Assembly: GCA_017656135.1 (NCBI GenBank) | Contig: JACDOJ010000011.1 | Location: forward strand, 1-43,155 | Direction: 5' to 3' | From: Bacillota bacterium | GTDB lineage: Bacteria; Bacillota; UBA5301 | DNA: 43,155 bases | Shown: positions 14,705 through 31,165 of the stretch, in pieces | How the letters are laid out: each line of letters opens with the position of its first letter | Numbering within the stretch: position 1 is the first letter of the stretch | Program-made: the position numbers and the translations under genes | Notes under the pieces: model-generated | What the model saw: only the letters and a program-made list of their open reading frames with translations | Told to the model about the DNA's origin: nothing | Database searches by the model: none

Positions 14705-14832
14705 ACCAATCACCTCCAGCAAATCTTTGCCATCACAATCTACCATAAAATGATGATCTTGGTCAACTAGGCAGGTCTTGCCATTATTCTGACAGAATAT
14801 GTCACTTACAGGAAAACACCGAGGTGAGTGCA

Positions 14833-15486
14833 ATGCAGGCCAGATCTTTGTCCCTTTTTCTCTTAGGAGCCACACTGTTCGCAGCCGCTGCCTGCCCCCC
14901 TTTGATGGCCGCGGGTGTCACCGGCAGCGCCCATGATTTTAGGTCACCGGAGAACGGTGGCCCCAACACCAAATACCCTCTTTTAGCCGAGAAAGCGGGG
15001 GAAAACCCCTGTGCGGTTTGTCATTCCAGCCACTCTGCGTTTTTTAACAAGGCCCTCTTAGCCGAAGATTTCGGCTGGGATCCAGGCCGCAAATTTGTGC
15101 TGCCCACTTCAGGGCTTTGCATGGGCTGCCACGACGGTGATGTCGTTACCCCAGAGGGGAAGATCGTTATCGATAATCCCGATCTGCACATAGCCGAACG
15201 CCATCCCAGGCACCGGGTGGAGTTTCCTTATCCAAGCGAGGAAGGGCACCTGCCCACCTATGCCCGGGTGGAGAAAGATGAACAGGGCCGGTACTGGGCC
15301 GTCGGTGCCAACGGTTACCGCCTACCACTGGATTATAACTCCCAGACCGGTCAAACCATGGCCGGCTGCATCACCTGCCACAATGCCCATGACCCCGGTG
15401 CCGCCAAGGCTTTTTTGCGGACCAAATACACCAAAGAACTTTGTTGGACTTGCCATTCAGAGCAGGCCAAACGGGTTGAAGAGTGA
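14833..15486 (+). CDS. Exported tetrahaem cytochrome c
   Basis: 217 aa with an N-terminal signal sequence (LFLLGATLFAAAAC) and four haem-binding CxxCH motifs: CAVCH, CMGCH, CITCH and CWTCH. Each is in a context typical of small doubled CxxCH proteins (PCAVCHSSH, ELCWTCHSEQ). It is likely an electron carrier outside the membrane. The Cys in the signal region could be a lipobox cysteine, but the -3 residue is atypical. The ATG at 14833 has GAGGTGA 6 nt upstream. It is 376 bp before the molybdoenzyme gene and may pass electrons to it or to the larger cytochrome at 22246. Cytochrome maturation genes are not in the window. Confidence 0.9.
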   Translation: MQARSLSLFLLGATLFAAAACPPLMAAGVTGSAHDFRSPENGGPNTKYPLLAEKAGENPCAVCHSSHSAFFNKALLAEDFGWDPGRKFVLPTSGLCMGCHDGDVVTPEGKIVIDNPDLHIAERHPRHRVEFPYPSEEGHLPTYARVEKDEQGRYWAVGANGYRLPLDYNSQTGQTMAGCITCHNAHDPGAAKAFLRTKYTKELCWTCHSEQAKRVEE

Positions 15487-15754
15487 GCATTTGGGTAGGG
15501 GATGGCTTTCCCCATGGATGTTACCGAGGCGTTGAGGAAGCAGTGAGGCCTGGGACGGCTTAATAATCGTGCCAAATAACACTATTATAATATTGTGATA
15601 TTCACCCTGTTCCGGACGGTAGTCGGCCCAAGATATACCGTTTGTGAACAGGGCTTTTGTGTTAAAGTGGGGAGAGATTGGGACGTGAAGCCCTATATCA
15701 GTTTTCCTTATCCCGGTCATAAGAAGGTCTTATCACCTGAGTATTAAAGAAACG

Positions 15755-15783
15755 CTTCACAAATACATGGGACATGCTATAAT
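15755..15783 (+). promoter_or_regulatory. Promoter of the molybdoenzyme operon
   Basis: A perfect -10 box TATAAT at 15778-15783 lies 17 bp after CTTCAC at 15755-15760, a weak -35 box. A weak -35 with a strong -10 fits an activated or repressed promoter. The inverted repeat at 15788-15817 begins 5 bp downstream, over the transcription start. Confidence 0.6.
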
Positions 15784-15787
15784 GAAA

Positions 15788-15817
15788 TTGTACTAAAGAA
15801 CTAATACAATAGTACAA
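15788..15817 (+). promoter_or_regulatory. Operator-like perfect inverted repeat
   Basis: TTGTACTA at 15788-15795 is the exact reverse complement of TAGTACAA at 15810-15817, with 14 bp between. It overlaps the expected transcription start just after the -10 box, an ideal repressor position. The YtrA-type GntR regulator encoded in the same operon at 20243 is the leading candidate ligand, by inference from position. Confidence 0.6.
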
Positions 15818-15862
15818 ATCCATCACTTTGTGCGCACAAGGGATTGCTATGGGGGGAGAACA

Positions 15863-18070
15863 GTGGAGTTAACCAGACGTAACTTTCTGAAGTACCTGGG
15901 CATCGCTGCGGCGGCCGGTACTGTTCAGGGTAAAATTGCTTTGGATCTCTTGCGTCCAGTTCCGTCGCAGGCTACGACCGAAAGTAACGTGATTTACAAA
16001 GCCGGAGTCTGTGGTATCTGCGGCATGAACTGTGCTATGAAGGGTAAAGTTGTCGACGGTGTTTTGATCAAATTGGAAGGCAACGAGTTGGACCAGCAGA
16101 GCGGTGGTTCCCTCTGCGCCAAGGGGAATGCTGGAATCAACATCCTGTATAACCCCGATCGCCTGAAGTACCCTATGGTTCGAACCAATCCGGAGAAAGG
16201 AATTGGGGTCGATCCTAAGTGGAAGCGGATTAGTTGGGAGGAAGCCTTTGACCTGGCTGCCCAGAAACTTTCTGAGATTAAAGAACAGTACGGCGGCAAA
16301 GCTATAGCTTGGTTTGGCGGCCATAAGGGCACAGATTTCCTGAAAGCCATCGGTTCTCCCAATGACTTTTGCCACCACTCTACCTGTGATACAGTTCGGG
16401 AAGTTGCCTGCGAGGTAATGCTAGGTACATCCGCCTACATCCCTGACTTTGCAGAAACCGACTACATCCTTTCCTTTGGCTGGGATCAGTTTGGTAAGGC
16501 TAAGAACGCCTGGGCCCGGTTGATGGCAAAGGCGCTGGACAGAGGAGCCAAACTGGTCGTCTTCGACCCGCGGCTGTCTCCGACTGCCAGCAAGGCTCAG
16601 GAGTGGTATCCGGTGGTCCCCGGTACTGACCACGCCTTGGTCTTGGCTATGCTGAATGTCATCATCTCCGAGAAACTCTACGATGCTGAGTATGTAGCTA
16701 AATACACCACCGGTTTTGATAAGCTGGCCGAGGAGGTCCGCAAGTACTCCCCGGAATGGGCTGCTGAGCTAACCGGAGTTCCGGCCGCCGATATCGTCCG
16801 GATCGCCCGGGAGTTCGCCGCCGCCAAGTCTGCGGTTATCCCCTGCCATAAACGGGAGGCTGCTCAGGTGCACCCCAACGGCATGGCCCTAGTGCAGGGT
16901 ATGATTGCGCTGATGGCCATAACCGGTAACTTCGAGCGCCGTGGTGGGGCCATGTTCCGAAAGAAGGCCAAGCTGAACAAAGTTAGTCCGCCGGAGGAAG
17001 CTCCAGGGCTGGAGACCACCATCCGGGTCGATGGGGCCGACCGTCTGCCCATTCTGTTGGAGTGCGGACACGCGGTCTACCAGAGTATCGCTGATGCTAT
17101 CCTGGAGGAGAAGCCATATCCTCTAAAAGCGGCCATCATATACAAACAGGGCTTGTTCTCTATGCCCAATCCGGCCAAGTTCGTCGAGGCCTTCAAAAAA
17201 CTGTTTATTATCAATATCAATATCCAGCCTGATGAGATGGCCCTCCTGGCTGATTTGGTTCTGCCGGATGTAACCTACATGGAAAGCGCCACAGTCAGTG
17301 TCCGCAAATATCATGCTCTTTACCCGCAAATTGCTGTGAGCGAGCCGATGGTTAAACCCATGTACGAGACCAAGAGCAGGTCCACGATCATCAGGGAGAT
17401 TGCCAAGCGGATGGGTATTGACCAGTACTTAAACCCAAGTGGGAGCAGTGTCCGTGATCAGCAACTTTCTCTCTACGGTCTGACCCAAAAAGATGTAATT
17501 GCTCAAGGCGGGGTTATCTCACCGGAAGGCACCGAGGTCAAGTACAAGGACCTGACCAAGCTTTCCACTCCGTCGGGCAAAATCGAGCTCTATGCTACGA
17601 GACTGGCTGAACACGGCTACAACCCGCTGCCGACTCACCGGGACGAGTGGATACTGCCAAAACCGAAGGCAGGAGAATTTTACCTGGTGACCACCAGGTT
17701 TGCTACTCACCGGCATGCTCAGATGCAGAACTACCGCTGGGTGCACGAGATCTACCCGGAAAACTACGTTAGCATCAATAAGAAAACTGCAGCTATATTA
17801 GGCATAGCCGATGGTGAGGAAGTAATTGTTGAGAGCCCATACGGGCAAATTAAGATTAAAGCCAAGCTAACTGAGGCGATTAGGCCTGATACAGTTTGTA
17901 TTCCTCACGGCTATGGTCATTGGTCCAAGTACTTGAGCAATGCCTACAGCAAAGGGGCCAATGACGGTGATCTGGCTCCGGCCCGGTCCATCGAGGAGAC
18001 CCTGGAGATGGATCCCGTAGCCGGCAGCAACAACGACTGTCACTTATTGGTTAAGGTGCGCAAGGCATAA
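15863..18070 (+). CDS. Exported molybdopterin oxidoreductase catalytic subunit, Psr/Phs-like
   Basis: 735 aa of the DMSO reductase superfamily. A twin-arginine signal (LTRRNFLKYLGIAAAAG) directs export of the folded enzyme. A [4Fe-4S] cluster is bound by Cys50, 53, 57 and 85 (CGICGMNC then SLCAKG). The best Mo ligand candidate is Cys175 in HHSTCDT. The C-terminal molybdopterin-binding domain is complete. Length and partners (four-cluster ferredoxin, NrfD) match polysulfide, thiosulfate, tetrathionate, arsenate or related reductases; the substrate cannot be decided. The GTG at 15863 has GGGGGGAG upstream; the frame open to 15830 is not needed. It leads an operon running at least to the NrfD gene. 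Confidence 0.93.
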   Translation: MELTRRNFLKYLGIAAAAGTVQGKIALDLLRPVPSQATTESNVIYKAGVCGICGMNCAMKGKVVDGVLIKLEGNELDQQSGGSLCAKGNAGINILYNPDRLKYPMVRTNPEKGIGVDPKWKRISWEEAFDLAAQKLSEIKEQYGGKAIAWFGGHKGTDFLKAIGSPNDFCHHSTCDTVREVACEVMLGTSAYIPDFAETDYILSFGWDQFGKAKNAWARLMAKALDRGAKLVVFDPRLSPTASKAQEWYPVVPGTDHALVLAMLNVIISEKLYDAEYVAKYTTGFDKLAEEVRKYSPEWAAELTGVPAADIVRIAREFAAAKSAVIPCHKREAAQVHPNGMALVQGMIALMAITGNFERRGGAMFRKKAKLNKVSPPEEAPGLETTIRVDGADRLPILLECGHAVYQSIADAILEEKPYPLKAAIIYKQGLFSMPNPAKFVEAFKKLFIININIQPDEMALLADLVLPDVTYMESATVSVRKYHALYPQIAVSEPMVKPMYETKSRSTIIREIAKRMGIDQYLNPSGSSVRDQQLSLYGLTQKDVIAQGGVISPEGTEVKYKDLTKLSTPSGKIELYATRLAEHGYNPLPTHRDEWILPKPKAGEFYLVTTRFATHRHAQMQNYRWVHEIYPENYVSINKKTAAILGIADGEEVIVESPYGQIKIKAKLTEAIRPDTVCIPHGYGHWSKYLSNAYSKGANDGDLAPARSIEETLEMDPVAGSNNDCHLLVKVRKA

Positions 18071-18095
18071 TCTACTCGGATAAGGGTGATTCCAA

Positions 18096-18743
18096 GTGGC
18101 AGCAATGGGAGAAAAAGATCTGGCAAGCATAGCCCTGGTACGCAGGTTGTATGAGGTCTTTCGGGGGCCTGATGCCGCCGGGGTCGCAGAACTCTGTGCC
18201 GGCAACTGGGTTTCAGATGTGGAGGAAACCCTGGCCGTCTTGGGTTTGGCTAGGCCTGCCACCTGGCACAGCCTGCTGCAGCAGTTGGGCACCGGCTGTC
18301 ACAACCGGGAACAGATGTTGGAAGAGCTGTCCGTGGAACACACCCGTTTATTTGTGAACGCCTACGGGGGAACGCCGGCACCCCCGTATGCCTCAGTCTA
18401 CTTGAACGATCAGCCTATGTTGGGCGGGCAGGTCACTCTCCAGGTGATCGAATGGTACAAACGGGCCGGGGTGGCTTTACCCCCTGACTACCCAGAGCCC
18501 CCTGATTACCTGCCGGTGGAGCTGGAGTTTGTCATTCACCTGATCCAGTCCATTCCCGAAGCCGGGACAGGTCAAGCTGCCAGCCAATTGCGTCTGGTCC
18601 AGCGTGAGTTCTGGCAGGATCATTTCAGGCTCTGGATTCCTCAGTTTGTGGCTAGGACTACAGAGGAGAGTCAGCACCCGCTGTACACGGCCTCAGCTGA
18701 AATACTCGGGGCCTTCGTCCAGCAAAGAGCTGTCTTAGTTTGA
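18096..18743 (+). CDS. TorD-family molybdoenzyme assembly chaperone
   Basis: 215-aa cytosolic all-helical protein of the TorD/DmsD/NarJ type. The conserved core is HTRLFVNAYGGTPAPPYASVY near residues 84-104. Such chaperones hold the apo-catalytic subunit until cofactor insertion and proofread its twin-arginine signal. AAGGGTGAT precedes the GTG start. The gene follows the catalytic subunit by 25 bp, so that enzyme is the evident client. Confidence 0.88.
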   Translation: MAAMGEKDLASIALVRRLYEVFRGPDAAGVAELCAGNWVSDVEETLAVLGLARPATWHSLLQQLGTGCHNREQMLEELSVEHTRLFVNAYGGTPAPPYASVYLNDQPMLGGQVTLQVIEWYKRAGVALPPDYPEPPDYLPVELEFVIHLIQSIPEAGTGQAASQLRLVQREFWQDHFRLWIPQFVARTTEESQHPLYTASAEILGAFVQQRAVLV

Positions 18744-18773
18744 TGGGTTTGTAAAAAGGGGAGGAGGATTAAA

Positions 18774-19325
18774 ATGGCCAATAAGCGTTATGGAATGGTC
18801 ATTGACTTGAGAAAGTGTGCGGGCTGCCACGCTTGTACAGTTGCCTGTAAGGCCGAGAATAAAGTCCCCGACGGGATTAAAAGAACTAAAATTATTGAAG
18901 AGGAAACCGGTGAGTTTCCTAACGTTGCCATAACCTTCAGGAAACACCAGTGTATGCACTGCCAGGATGCGCCTTGTGTCAAAGTCTGCCCTACCAAAGC
19001 ATCTTACCACACTGAATTTGGGACCTGTGAAGTGGATCCTAAGCTTTGTATCGGCTGCAAGTACTGTGTTCATGCCTGTCCGTATCGGGCCAGGACCATC
19101 AATCCGGAGAACGGCTTGCCGGAAAAGTGCACCCTCTGCGTGGACAAGCTGGCCAAGGGTGAACTACCGGCCTGTGCCACCACTTGCATCGGCAATGCTA
19201 TCACCGTAGGCGATCTCAACGATCCCAATAGTGAAGTCTCCCGGGCAGTGGCCAAAGGGGCCAGGCCCCTTAATCCTGAGTGGAATACCAAACCGTCAAT
19301 ATTCTACATCTGGAACCGGCGGTAA
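18774..19325 (+). CDS. Four-cluster ferredoxin subunit (PsrB/PhsB/NrfC-like)
   Basis: 183 aa with four sets of cysteines for [4Fe-4S] clusters: Cys15/18/21/25 (CAGCHACTVAC), CMHCQDAPCVKVCP, CIGCKYCVHACP and CTLCVDK with a later CATTC. It transfers electrons between the membrane anchor and the molybdenum subunit. It has no signal of its own and would be exported with the twin-arginine catalytic subunit. A GGGGAGGAGG site precedes the ATG. Confidence 0.95.
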   Translation: MANKRYGMVIDLRKCAGCHACTVACKAENKVPDGIKRTKIIEEETGEFPNVAITFRKHQCMHCQDAPCVKVCPTKASYHTEFGTCEVDPKLCIGCKYCVHACPYRARTINPENGLPEKCTLCVDKLAKGELPACATTCIGNAITVGDLNDPNSEVSRAVAKGARPLNPEWNTKPSIFYIWNRR

Positions 19326-19352
19326 TCATATTAACAATCTGGGGTGAGATAA

Positions 19353-20219
19353 ATGCATGGAGAAGTTCTATGGAATGTATATATCGCTATCTATCTCTTC
19401 TTAGCCGGAATCTCCGCAGGTAGTGCAGTCCTGGCTGCCGTGAACCAGCTCTTTGGAATCTGGGAGGAGAAGGTCACCAAGGCCGCAGCCTACGTGGCAC
19501 CCTTCCCGGTAATGGGTGGTTTGTTGGCCTTAGTGCTGGATTTAAGCAGACCCTTAAATTTCTATCAGGTCATGCTCCACTACAACTGGACTTCAGTGAT
19601 GAGTTGGGGTGTTGTCTTCCTCAACCTCTTTCCGCCGGTAGCCTTGCTTTTTGCGGTTTCTCACTTCACCGGATGGTTTGAAAAGTACCGTAAGGCTTTA
19701 GCCGTGGCCGTGATGGCTCTGGGTGTGGGAATCGGAACCTATGCCGGGCTGCTGTTGGCAGCGATTAGCGCCAACCCTCTCTGGGGTAATCCGGTTCTCG
19801 GTGTGCTCTTCTTGGTCTCTGCACTGAGCACCGGGGTTTGTGCCGCAATGTTAGTCGCCCAGTTTGTCTTCAAGGTTTCCCATCAGAGTCTCAAAGGCTT
19901 GGCTGTTGTGGACAGTACCCTGATCATTCTGGAGCTGGTTGTGATCGCCGTTCTTCTGATTGGTTGGGCCGTGGCACCGACAGGTGGGAAAGCCCTGCAG
20001 ATACTGCTGGCAGGTGAGTATGCCGGAATCTTCTTAGGCGGAGTCTTGGTCTTCGGTCTTCTGGTGCCGCTGGCTCTCAACCTCTTGGAGCTGGGTGCCT
20101 TCGGAAAAGCTCGCCACATCCCTGCTGTTGCTCCCCTGTTGGTGTTAGTGGGAGGTTACTTCCTCAGACACGTAATTGTCTACGCTGGTCAAGCTATCTA
20201 CCCTCTGCTTTTAGGCTAG
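19353..20219 (+). CDS. NrfD/PsrC-type quinone-interacting membrane anchor
   Basis: 288-aa integral membrane protein with about eight hydrophobic helices. The N-terminal YIAIYLFLAGISAGSAVLAA and the DLSRPLNFYQV segment after the second helix are typical of NrfD/PsrC subunits, which exchange electrons with the menaquinone pool. It completes a complex iron-sulfur molybdoenzyme with the two preceding subunits. GGGGTGAG precedes the ATG. Confidence 0.92.
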   Translation: MHGEVLWNVYIAIYLFLAGISAGSAVLAAVNQLFGIWEEKVTKAAAYVAPFPVMGGLLALVLDLSRPLNFYQVMLHYNWTSVMSWGVVFLNLFPPVALLFAVSHFTGWFEKYRKALAVAVMALGVGIGTYAGLLLAAISANPLWGNPVLGVLFLVSALSTGVCAAMLVAQFVFKVSHQSLKGLAVVDSTLIILELVVIAVLLIGWAVAPTGGKALQILLAGEYAGIFLGGVLVFGLLVPLALNLLELGAFGKARHIPAVAPLLVLVGGYFLRHVIVYAGQAIYPLLLG

Positions 20220-21619: not shown

Positions 21620-22123
21620 ATGAAAAAGATTTTGATCACCAGTATTCTCCTAGTTTTGACTTTTTCATCCGCTGCCGGCGCCGCAGAACTGGCTGATAAA
21701 TTGGCGGTGGGTTTTCAAATTACCCCTCACTTCTCTGGCTTCAGCTTCAAGTATCAGCTTGATGAAGACCAGATTGTCCAGCCTATCTTTTACATCTCGG
21801 CCGAAGGGATAAACAGCGATAACAAAGTTCTGGATAACACTTTTGCCGTCAGAGTCCTCTACGATATGGGTTCCAACGGTTCCTACCAGCATTACCTGGG
21901 TTGGGGAGTGGGCCTTGTGACCCACAAAAACTACGAAGACGGCGCTGTCCAGGTGGATGAAACCAGCTACGCAGCCCAAGGTTTTGTCGGGTTCGAAAAA
22001 GGGTCACCTCTGGCTACCAGCATTGAGCTTTCCTTGGGTCTGGCCGAGGACAGCAGCGATTCTGGAAGCGGCAGCTTTGAAGCCGGTTTTGGCCTCGGCC
22101 TAGGTTTTCACTATCACTTCTAG
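21620..22123 (+). CDS. Exported small beta-barrel-like protein
   Basis: 167 aa. A clear signal peptide (LITSILLVLTFSSAAGA, cleavage near AGA-AE) is followed by alternating polar and non-polar strands (LAVGFQITPHFSGFSFKYQ, TFAVRVLYDMG, GWGVGLVTHKNY, SYAAQGFVGFEKG, ATSIELSLGLAE, GFGLGLGFHYHF). It ends with Phe, like outer-membrane barrels recognised by the BAM complex. The size fits an eight-stranded barrel. I do not recognise a specific family. GGTGGAGG precedes the ATG. In a spore-former this would be expected only if an outer membrane exists. Confidence 0.65.
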   Translation: MKKILITSILLVLTFSSAAGAAELADKLAVGFQITPHFSGFSFKYQLDEDQIVQPIFYISAEGINSDNKVLDNTFAVRVLYDMGSNGSYQHYLGWGVGLVTHKNYEDGAVQVDETSYAAQGFVGFEKGSPLATSIELSLGLAEDSSDSGSGSFEAGFGLGLGFHYHF

Positions 22124-22164: not shown

Positions 22165-22193
22165 TTGACATATGATCAGTAATGAGTTATAAG
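22165..22193 (+). promoter_or_regulatory. Promoter of the selenocytochrome-rhodanese pair
   Basis: A perfect -35 TTGACA at 22165-22170 and TATAAG at 22188-22193 are separated by 17 bp. This gives the cytochrome and rhodanese genes their own transcript, separate from the molybdoenzyme operon. Confidence 0.7.
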
Positions 22194-22245
22194 GCGAACA
22201 CCTGTTTTGGATGGATTCTTAATTTCAAGGAGGGTACCTACTAAC

Positions 22246-23547
22246 GTGCGAAAGTCTAGCCGAGCGCTACTTGTGACTTTGTTCGCCGTAGCCAGCATTT
22301 TTCTTTCTGTTATTGGTGCTCTGGCGGCAGAAGACTCGGCCTGTATCAGCTGTCACACCAATCCGGATTTGCTGGACGAGCTGACTCCGGTGGTCACCAA
22401 GACCTCCACTGGCGGTTGAGGTGTCTCTGCCCCTCAGTTGAGCGGGAGCGAAAAATACGGTGTAAAGTCTGAATTTATTGATTCTTTACACGGTTCCTTG
22501 GGTTGCATCGGATGTCACGGCGGAAACAACGTGGTTGACAAGGAGGAAGCCCACCAAGGGCTGGTTGCGGACCCTTCAGCCATCGAAGGGGGAGTCTGCG
22601 CCGACTGCCACTCTGACGTAGTCGAAACCTTCATCACCAGTCTCCACTATACCACGGTAGGGCAGGCGCTGGGTCTTGAGGGTCTCTCTCACCAAGGAGC
22701 GGTCTTAGGTGATGAGCACCTTCGGGTGGATCACCTGGCTGAGACTTACGAGGGAGAGTGCTCCAATTGTCATGCCACCTGCGGCCAGTGCCACATCAGC
22801 AGGGCCAACACAGTGACCGGCGGCCTCTTGGACGGCCACAACATTGTCAGCCAGCCCGATGCGGAAACCGCCTGCTACAGCTGTCACGGTTCCCGAAGCG
22901 CTGGAGAGTACATCGGAGATGTAGCCGGCCTGAAAACCATGCCTGATACCCACTGGAAGAAAGCCGGCATGCAGTGTGTAGACTGCCATCCCGTCAGCAA
23001 CTTCCACGGTACTGGCGGCGAAGAGACGGCTAAGTACAAACTGGCTGAGCTGCCCCAATGTGTGGACTGCCACGCAGACGCACTCCCGGGCAAGGGAGAC
23101 GTCCTGGCCCACAATGCTCACCCTGAGAACACCTTAGAGTGCCAGGTCTGCCACTCTGTGCCCTACAACAACTGCTGGGACTGTCATGTGACCCTTACTC
23201 CGGAAGGGAAGTACGGGAGCAAGTCCGACAACAAATTGGACTTCAAGATCGCCCTCAATCCGGAACAGGATGAGCGGTATCCCTGGAAGTACGTCTTAGT
23301 GCGGCATGTACCTACTGCCCGGGATATGTTGGCAGCCAAGAGTGAAGGACTTCTGACCAATTTCGATCAGGTTCCCAACTATAAGCTGACCACACCGCAC
23401 AACATCCAAAAGCTGACTCCTCAGAACTTCAAGTGCCAGAACTGTCATAATAATAAGAAGTTCTTCCTAACCGAGGATGACATCAAAGAGACTGACCCGG
23501 CGGCCAACTACGACTACGTCGTCAAGGAACTGCCGCCTAAAATGTAA
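22246..23547 (+). CDS. Exported undecahaem cytochrome c with in-frame TGA (probable selenocysteine, residue 58)
   Basis: 433 aa if the TGA at 22417-22419 is read through. The signal peptide is RALLVTLFAVASIFLSVIG with cleavage near ALA-AE. Eleven CxxCH haem motifs follow: CISCH (33-37), then after residue 58 CIGCH (87-91), CADCH (118-122), CSNCH, CGQCH, CYSCH, CVDCH, CVDCH, CQVCH, CWDCH and CQNCH. The TGA lies in TSTGG-U-GVSAPQ between haems 1 and 2, outside any CxxCH. Without readthrough, the first part is a 57-residue stub and the second lacks export signal and ribosome site. GTG at 22246 is chosen for AAGGAGGG upstream. A SECIS-like hairpin follows the TGA. A nonsense mutation is the main alternative. 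It is co-transcribed with the rhodanese gene. Confidence 0.82.
22427..22448 (+). promoter_or_regulatory. SECIS-like stem-loop after the in-frame TGA
   Basis: Ten nucleotides after the TGA, C30-C31-C32 of 22430-22432 pair with G44-G46 (22444-22446), then after a bulged C at 22443, CTC (22433-22435) pairs with GAG (22440-22442). The apical loop is AGTT with G in second position. Two more pairs (22427-22428 with 22447-22448) extend the base around a bulged G. The 17-nt upper hairpin at 11 nt from TGA matches the size and spacing of the E. coli fdhF SECIS element. Confidence 0.6.
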
Positions 23548-23565: not shown

Positions 23566-24024
23566 ATGAAAAGGATTAGCAGAATTGTCGTCTTGACCCT
23601 GGTTTTGGCTATGGCGCTATCAGCCTCCGCTTTTGCGGCCATGAGCGCCGGCGATCTGGTTGCTGAGGCCAAAGGAAAGATCACTCAGATTTCTCCGATG
23701 GAACTCCAGATGCGCTTGGAGATGGGTGAGAAACTCTTGGTGATTGACATCAGGAACAAAGAGGAGTTCCTGGCCGGACATATTCCCGGTGCCGTCAACG
23801 TCACCCGTGACCTCTTGGAGTTCAAGATCGCGGATCTGGTTCCCGATCCTGAAACCGAGTTTGTGGTCAACTGCAAATCCGGCGGTCGTTCTTCTCTTGC
23901 TGCCGAGCAGTTGGTCAGGATGGGCTACACCAACGTTCTGAACCTGGACGGCGGTATGAAGGCCTGGATGCAGTCTGGCTATCCTGTAGAAACCGCCCTG
24001 GGCCTCTTTACTCTGGCTCAGTAA
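23566..24024 (+). CDS. Exported single-domain rhodanese
   Basis: 152 aa. The signal peptide (IVVLTLVLAMALSASAFA, cleavage near AFA-AM) has no lipobox cysteine, so the protein should be soluble outside the membrane. The rhodanese domain has LVIDIRNKEEFLAGHIPGA and the active-site loop VNCKSGGRSSLAAEQ with catalytic Cys. Rhodaneses carry persulfide or, by analogy, perselenide sulfur on this Cys. GGAGG precedes the ATG. It follows the multihaem cytochrome by 18 bp, so the two act together, perhaps in handling reduced sulfur or selenium. Confidence 0.92.
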   Translation: MKRISRIVVLTLVLAMALSASAFAAMSAGDLVAEAKGKITQISPMELQMRLEMGEKLLVIDIRNKEEFLAGHIPGAVNVTRDLLEFKIADLVPDPETEFVVNCKSGGRSSLAAEQLVRMGYTNVLNLDGGMKAWMQSGYPVETALGLFTLAQ

Positions 24025-24064: not shown

Positions 24065-24075
24065 GTCTGATCACT

Positions 24076-24110
24076 GCCCCTTGGCTTCGGCCGAGGGGCG
24101 CCTTATTTTG
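24076..24110 (+). terminator. Terminator of the cytochrome-rhodanese operon
   Basis: GCCCCTTGGC pairs with GCCGAGGGGC around a TTCG tetraloop (one T-G pair), followed by GCCTTATTTT. This strong hairpin separates the rhodanese from the modE-like gene and shows that any modE start upstream of it is wrong. Confidence 0.8.
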
Positions 24111-30338: not shown

Positions 30339-30779
30339 GTGAAAGAGGTGGATATCTATACAGACGGAGCCTGTTCAGGCAATCCGGGACCCGGCGGTTG
30401 GGGTGCCGTCCTCATCTACGGTAGTCACCGGAAAGAGCTTTCTGGCTCGGATCGCCAAACCACCAACCAGCGCATGGAGCTGACCGCTGCCATCCGGGCC
30501 TTGGAAGCCCTTAAAGAGCCCTGTAGGGTCAGAATCTTTTCCGACAGCGCCTATTTAGTCAATGCCTTCAATCAAGGGTGGTTGGATAAGTGGCAGCAGG
30601 GCGGTTGGAAGACAGCCAAAGGGTCGCCTGTGGAAAATCAGGACCTCTGGCAAACTCTTTTGGATCTTACTTCCAAACATGATGTGACCTGGCATAAGGT
30701 TAAGGGACACGCCGATAACGAGCTCAACAACAGATGTGACCAGCTGGCCAGGATAGCGGCGGGGGAGGCAAGTCTTTGA
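30339..30779 (+). CDS. rnhA: Ribonuclease HI
   Basis: 146 aa. It cleaves RNA in RNA-DNA hybrids. Active-site carboxylates are visible in IYTDGACSGNPGPGGWG (Asp), NQRMELTAAIRAL (Glu), RIFSDSAYLV (Asp) and CDQLARIAA (Asp), with KVKGHADNELN before the last. The GTG at 30339 has GGAGGG at good spacing and gives a normal length; an ATG at 30291 would add a basic, low-complexity 16-residue tail but has only a distant ribosome site. Its stop overlaps the rhodanese ATG by one base. Confidence 0.95.
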   Translation: MKEVDIYTDGACSGNPGPGGWGAVLIYGSHRKELSGSDRQTTNQRMELTAAIRALEALKEPCRVRIFSDSAYLVNAFNQGWLDKWQQGGWKTAKGSPVENQDLWQTLLDLTSKHDVTWHKVKGHADNELNNRCDQLARIAAGEASL

Positions 30780-31165
30780 TGCGAAAAGGCAGCTTATTGG
30801 TAATACTAGTTGTTGCAGCCATAGGGGCAATAGGTATGTCTGTTTGGATGGGCAGTCAACGTTACCAAGATGTTGCGGCCGATGATGTGCTTTCCCGCTT
30901 CCAGCGAGGAGAAAAGCTTATTATTGTCGATGTGCGGCAGCCGGACGAGTATGCCGCCGGGCATATCCCAGGCGCGATTTTAATTCCTCTTCCGAATTTG
31001 GAAGACTACCTTGACCAGCTGGATAAAGAGACAGAGATTTTTCTGGTCTGCCGCAGCGGAGTCCGCAGCCGAACGGCAGCAAAAATCCTGGCGGAAAAGG
31101 GTTTCCGCCAGGTGCGCAACATCTCCGGTGGCATGTTGGCCTGGAAGGGGCCGGTAGAAAGATAG
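30779..31165 (+). CDS. Membrane-anchored rhodanese
   Basis: 128 aa. An uncleaved N-terminal helix (GSLLVILVVAAIGAIGMSVWM) is followed by a rhodanese domain with IVDVRQPDEYAAGHIPGA and the active-site loop LVCRSGVRSRTAA (catalytic Cys). The domain faces outside the membrane. It is translationally coupled to rnhA, a chance pairing in function. It resembles the exported rhodanese at 23566 in the domain but not in the signal. Convergent with the ABC transporter genes. Confidence 0.9.
   Translation: MRKGSLLVILVVAAIGAIGMSVWMGSQRYQDVAADDVLSRFQRGEKLIIVDVRQPDEYAAGHIPGAILIPLPNLEDYLDQLDKETEIFLVCRSGVRSRTAAKILAEKGFRQVRNISGGMLAWKGPVER

Follow-up and report, generated by a model that had tools for sequence, protein, structure and literature searches.

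The window, i.e., the whole 43,155-nucleotide stretch of DNA analysed here, carries a predicted multihaem selenocytochrome gene followed by the gene of an exported rhodanese, with the following features:

22165–22193, forward strand: promoter-like TTGACA-N17-TATAAG (pattern match)
22227–22234, forward strand: Shine-Dalgarno-like AAGGAGGG, 11 nt upstream of the GTG start (direct reading)
22246–23547, forward strand: gene of a putative 11-haem c-type selenocytochrome, 433 aa with selenocysteine (Sec) predicted at residue 58; homologues found
22342–22356, forward strand: haem 1 motif CISCH, residues 33–37
22402–22437, forward strand: Gly/Pro-rich Sec loop TSTGG-U-GVSAPQ, common to 17 genomes and missing in loop-less homologues
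22417–22419, forward strand: in-frame TGA, predicted to encode selenocysteine (residue 58), kept in 16 genomes of nine families
22424–22451, forward strand: SECIS-like hairpin, apical loop AGUU, 16 nt after the UGA (fold plus compensatory changes in relatives)
22504–23448, forward strand: haem motifs 2–11, ten CxxCH, residues 87–401
23566–24024, forward strand: exported single-domain rhodanese, active-site CKSGGRS, second gene of the unit (PF00581, E 4e-22)
24075–24100, forward strand: terminator-like hairpin, end of the two-gene unit

The cytochrome frame runs from a GTG start to a TAA stop through 434 codons, counting the stop, and is interrupted by a single in-frame TGA at codon 58; direct reading of the frame and a count of its CxxCH motifs, one upstream of the TGA and ten downstream, bore out what the sequence-only reading had claimed on both points. 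Pfam domains Cytochrome_C7 and Cytochrom_c3_2 were both above their cut-offs, and a signal-like N-terminus (judged by reading of the sequence) combined with several CxxCH motifs fulfils the criteria for a multihaem c-type cytochrome, namely an export signal and repeated haem motifs. The host genome, 99% complete, holds one copy of the gene. The rhodanese also has a signal-like N-terminus. The claim that the cytochrome has its own promoter was supported by the TTGACA-N17-TATAAG match, 53–81 bases upstream of the start (0.06 matches of this pattern expected in the window, two found), though a stricter consensus promoter scan missed it and reported none. This match, the adjoining rhodanese gene and the terminator-like hairpin downstream suggest that both genes are transcribed as one unit.

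Elsewhere in the window, positions 14824–20216 encode a four-haem cytochrome, then a Phs/Psr-like molybdopterin oxidoreductase, a TorD-like chaperone, and NrfC-like and NrfD-like subunits, possibly a second sulfur-compound respiratory enzyme near the selenocytochrome. A small exported protein without Pfam match (21620–22123) ends in GLGLGFHYHF, resembling the C-terminus of an outer-membrane beta-barrel and hinting at a two-membrane cell, and at 30776–31165 lies another rhodanese-like protein, whose N-terminus holds a membrane or signal segment.

Because TGA is an ordinary stop elsewhere in the window (8 of 32 long open stretches, both strands), codon 58 might be a true stop, leaving either a decayed gene or two separate proteins. 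We give this next to no credence, as genome searches recovered homologues with TGA at the same column (G000, G002, G090, G076, G082, G370, G041, G235, G340, G297 and G120, and further G473, G477, G411, G423 and G419), together 16 genomes from nine families of the phylum; one of these frames, in G419, ends early, after five haems. The residue preceding the Sec column is Gly in 15 of the 16 proteins (G/S overall), the following one is Gly or Ala, and Pro stands at position +5 in every case. Upstream and downstream of the TGA alike, the G000 and G002 genes differ mostly at third codon positions (33/51 codons upstream, 213/373 downstream), a bias that also argues against a true stop. Between the TGA and haem 2, two TTG codons could serve as starts, neither with a Shine-Dalgarno sequence, no restart site is conserved across the homologues, and the second part lacks a signal peptide. 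Downstream decay or a sense codon in relatives would have counted against selenocysteine; instead, TGA persists in the 16 genomes with the downstream haem motifs kept. The pseudogene and split-gene readings were therefore rejected, as was a read error, since it would have to recur in 16 independent genomes, which is not credible. The bacterial selenoprotein criterion that TGA be kept in relatives with coding continuing downstream is thus fulfilled in 16 genomes of nine families, and assignment of codon 58 to selenocysteine appears close to certain, albeit without any peptide or selenium measurement.

The genome also satisfies the criterion that selA, selB, selC and selD be present. A search for these genes, proposed in the sequence-only reading, recovered a tRNA-Sec (77.8 bits, anticodon TCA) with selD-selA-selB beside it, forming a selC-selD-selA-selB cluster in which selD (L019:7266-8378) is itself a selenoprotein gene with an in-frame TGA (SSKSG-U-AAKF). 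All 16 genomes tested contained selB, and loss of the machinery is therefore not the cause of the serine or loop-less forms described below.

According to the available passages of PMC13188914, the bacterial SECIS consensus comprises a G in the first two loop positions, 16–37 nt spacing, a stem of 4–16 bp and a minimum free energy of −7.5 or lower. The window hairpin fits this consensus (−9.9 kcal/mol, loop AGUU, spacing 16), whereas those of G082 and G120 did not pass the automatic rule. Its energy was not unusual relative to synonymous-codon randomisation (z −0.17), and the case for a SECIS element therefore rests on covariation, since energy alone is uninformative. Covariation was assessed in ten loop-bearing genes of the PQL type, which align without gaps after the TGA. 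For the hairpin whose apical loop is AGUU(R), starting 16 nt past the UGA, 88% of cells were paired, and three pairs had changed on both sides, with 13 such cells versus 3.0 in shuffles; the covariation score of 0.467 was reached in none of 500 shuffles, and the signal fell off once the partner strand was slid. One pair, joining the third base of the conserved Pro codon with the codon after PQL, occurs as GC, UG, CG and UA among the genes without mismatch. The best fold in G000 and G002 is shifted by one base in register, with a four-base loop. A covarying hairpin at this position is a further argument against a true stop, and insertion of Sec58 by SelA, SelB, SelC and SelD via the hairpin directly after the UGA is a strongly supported prediction.

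The usual, non-obligatory expectation that some homologues carry Cys at the Sec column was not met. Alignment at this column, the check suggested at the outset, gave a divided result: TGA was retained, but Cys was found in none of the 17 loop-bearing proteins. The exception to Sec was a serine in G393 (TCA, with the rest of the loop near-identical). G001 and G043 lack the whole loop, and so do G382 and G310, which are more distant. No further Sec homologue came from searching the order to which G082 and G090 belong or the classes that hold G120, G076 and G041. In a tree of 20 proteins, with an uncertain root and several long rows, a branch (support 86/75) separated the Sec proteins from the loop-less ones, and the G393 protein was nested within the Sec group as sister of G076 (100/99). 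This placement is most simply explained by a later replacement of Sec by Ser, as inferred from the tree.

The pairing with a periplasmic rhodanese proved much stronger than the single locus could show, extending to 15 of the 17 loop-bearing loci, where a rhodanese of one of three architectures adjoins or is fused to the cytochrome. A single-domain rhodanese adjoins in G000, G002 and G082 (in the last, found by profile search and overlapped by an antisense open reading frame), a tandem, lipoprotein-like rhodanese in G090, G076, G370, G235, G473, G411, G120 and G393, and a two-domain, thiosulfate-sulfurtransferase-like rhodanese in G041, G340 and G297. In G423 the cytochrome runs in frame into two rhodanese domains, a natural fusion (L060:3752-5953) that is adjoined by a separate tandem rhodanese (L060:2202-3194). 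No adjacent rhodanese was present in the stretches read for G477 and G419, and none was seen at the loop-less loci G001 and G043 (part of the G001 stretch being N). G393 retains its rhodanese despite the Ser at the Sec column. In G411 and G120, TusA and a PF04143 sulfur transporter are also near the cytochrome. With three rhodanese architectures and a fusion on record, the pairing suggests a functional link and not a merely inherited neighbourhood. CcmF-like genes and others apparently for cytochrome c maturation lie immediately next to the selenocytochrome (L059:6018-8557 and L060:6128-8733).

Beyond haem 1, the homologues conserve no Cys other than those of the haem motifs, and Sec is the only conserved chalcogenol besides the haem thioether Cys and, in lipoprotein-like members, the lipid-anchor Cys. 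The protein thus offers Sec no conserved internal thiol partner, leaving the rhodanese cysteine as its natural partner. The loop between haems 1 and 2 probably acts as a flexible arm, proposed without a usable model of its placement or of the haem geometry: AlphaFold2 predictions of the window cytochrome were poor (pLDDT 40 with 8 sequences, 57 with 17), a fold search found nothing, and a PDB sequence search gave only weak local matches to multihaem proteins, among them 4qo5, MccA and NrfA. That Sec is a catalytic or cross-linking residue is likewise an inference.

Overall, we lean towards an exported 11-haem selenocysteine cytochrome in which Sec, loaded by the rhodanese, would be reduced by haem electrons, the mechanism being inferred. 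More specifically, but only tentatively and with doubts that slightly outweigh our confidence, it may be a rhodanese-fed, Sec-dependent haem reductase in which sulfane sulfur (or selenium) passes from a persulfide to the selenolate on the mobile arm and is then reduced. The exported rhodanese would load its own cysteine with sulfane sulfur (drawn from polysulfide, thiosulfate or tetrathionate) or with selenium; the selenolate would accept it as Se-S(H) or a selenenylsulfide; and electrons from the haem chain would set free HS- (or HSe-) and restore the selenolate. The enzyme could also run in reverse, oxidising sulfide and passing the electrons out through its haems. Transfer, direction and substrate are inferred only, the substrate solely from the partner genes, and the rhodanese, TusA and PF04143 proteins may instead, or also, serve selenium metabolism.

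Since the protein is mostly haem, Sec could alternatively be an axial haem ligand or a redox-tuning residue of an ordinary electron-transfer cytochrome, with the rhodanese serving something else. In the G041 and G340 proteins only nine non-proximal His follow haem 1, against 11 haems, which would leave room for such a ligand, whereas the window protein has 13, enough to cover bis-His ligation. A Gly/Pro arm would be an unusual ligand setting, and the fusion and repeated rhodanese pairing argue for direct chemistry; we consider this alternative improbable.

A real Sec would also be compatible with a selenite or tellurite reductase resembling the ExtH/ExtKL system, in which the rhodanese would carry selenium, not sulfur, and Sec would help to reduce selenite or its adducts. 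As described in the accessible parts of PMC5877670, ExtKL of Geobacter is a proposed multihaem cytochrome selenoprotein, implicated in selenite reduction, whose cluster also encodes the rhodanese ExtH. Like the window protein, it is a multihaem c-type cytochrome with one proposed Sec and a rhodanese in the cluster. However, ExtKL has five haems, belongs to another sequence family and comes from an ext cluster that was not recognised here. Its profile (NF040886, cyt_C_like_Sec, cut-off 250 bits) gave no match to the window cytochrome, whose identification as ExtKL was rejected on this basis, and matched the cytochrome gene in none of 14 genomes. All eight A1 members do match the profile of ExtM, another multihaem cytochrome of the ext cluster, but weakly: the window protein reached 30.3 bits against a cut-off of 800 (NF040943), through local similarity at residues 55–139. 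ExtM has 12 haems and a 599-position profile, and is not named as a selenoprotein in the source passages available. With the porin and bc-type subunits of the ext cluster also unrecognised around the loci examined, we regard a selenite or tellurite reductase as unlikely, though not negligible, and retain the rhodanese-loaded Sec reduced by haem electrons as the preferred reading.

Two further systems invite comparison. In the Sud-Psr polysulfide reduction of Wolinella, Psr is a molybdoenzyme, whereas the acceptor of rhodanese sulfur here would be a haem selenoprotein. The parallel lies in a rhodanese-type carrier feeding a reductase: Sud passes polysulfide sulfur on to a reductase in this way (PMC2754497). 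The tetrathionate reductase family octahaem cytochrome (TIGR04315) is a multihaem cytochrome with a reported Sec member, annotated as a selenoprotein in GenBank according to the available passages of PMC13188914, but it has eight haems, and with E values up to 1 allowed, TIGR04315 was absent from the profile matches of the window cytochrome. No NCBIfam model came near its cut-off for the window cytochrome, leaving the family uncovered, and the passages available from a 2026 selenoprotein inventory name ExtKL, the octahaem cytochrome and a GSU2204-type protein but no 11-haem family. On these grounds, together with the lack of an ExtKL match, we file the protein as a putative new family within the known multihaem selenocytochromes, distinguished by rhodanese coupling up to fusion and by the lack of Cys forms. 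The literature passages available contained no selenohaem enzyme with rhodanese-fed selenolate chemistry.

A selenoprotein family so far without a Cys counterpart would be missed by searches based on Cys/Sec pairs, and ordinary annotation would keep only the last ten haems of this cytochrome. The fusion predicts direct transfer of sulfur or selenium to a haem-wired selenol and, considered with ExtH/ExtKL, suggests that the pairing of a rhodanese with a selenocytochrome is recurrent in anaerobic respiration or detoxification. A nine-haem cytochrome with MtrC/MtrF-like and carboxypeptidase-regulatory-like domains (L025:1372-3633), which neighbours the loop-less homologue in G001, possibly serves extracellular electron transfer.
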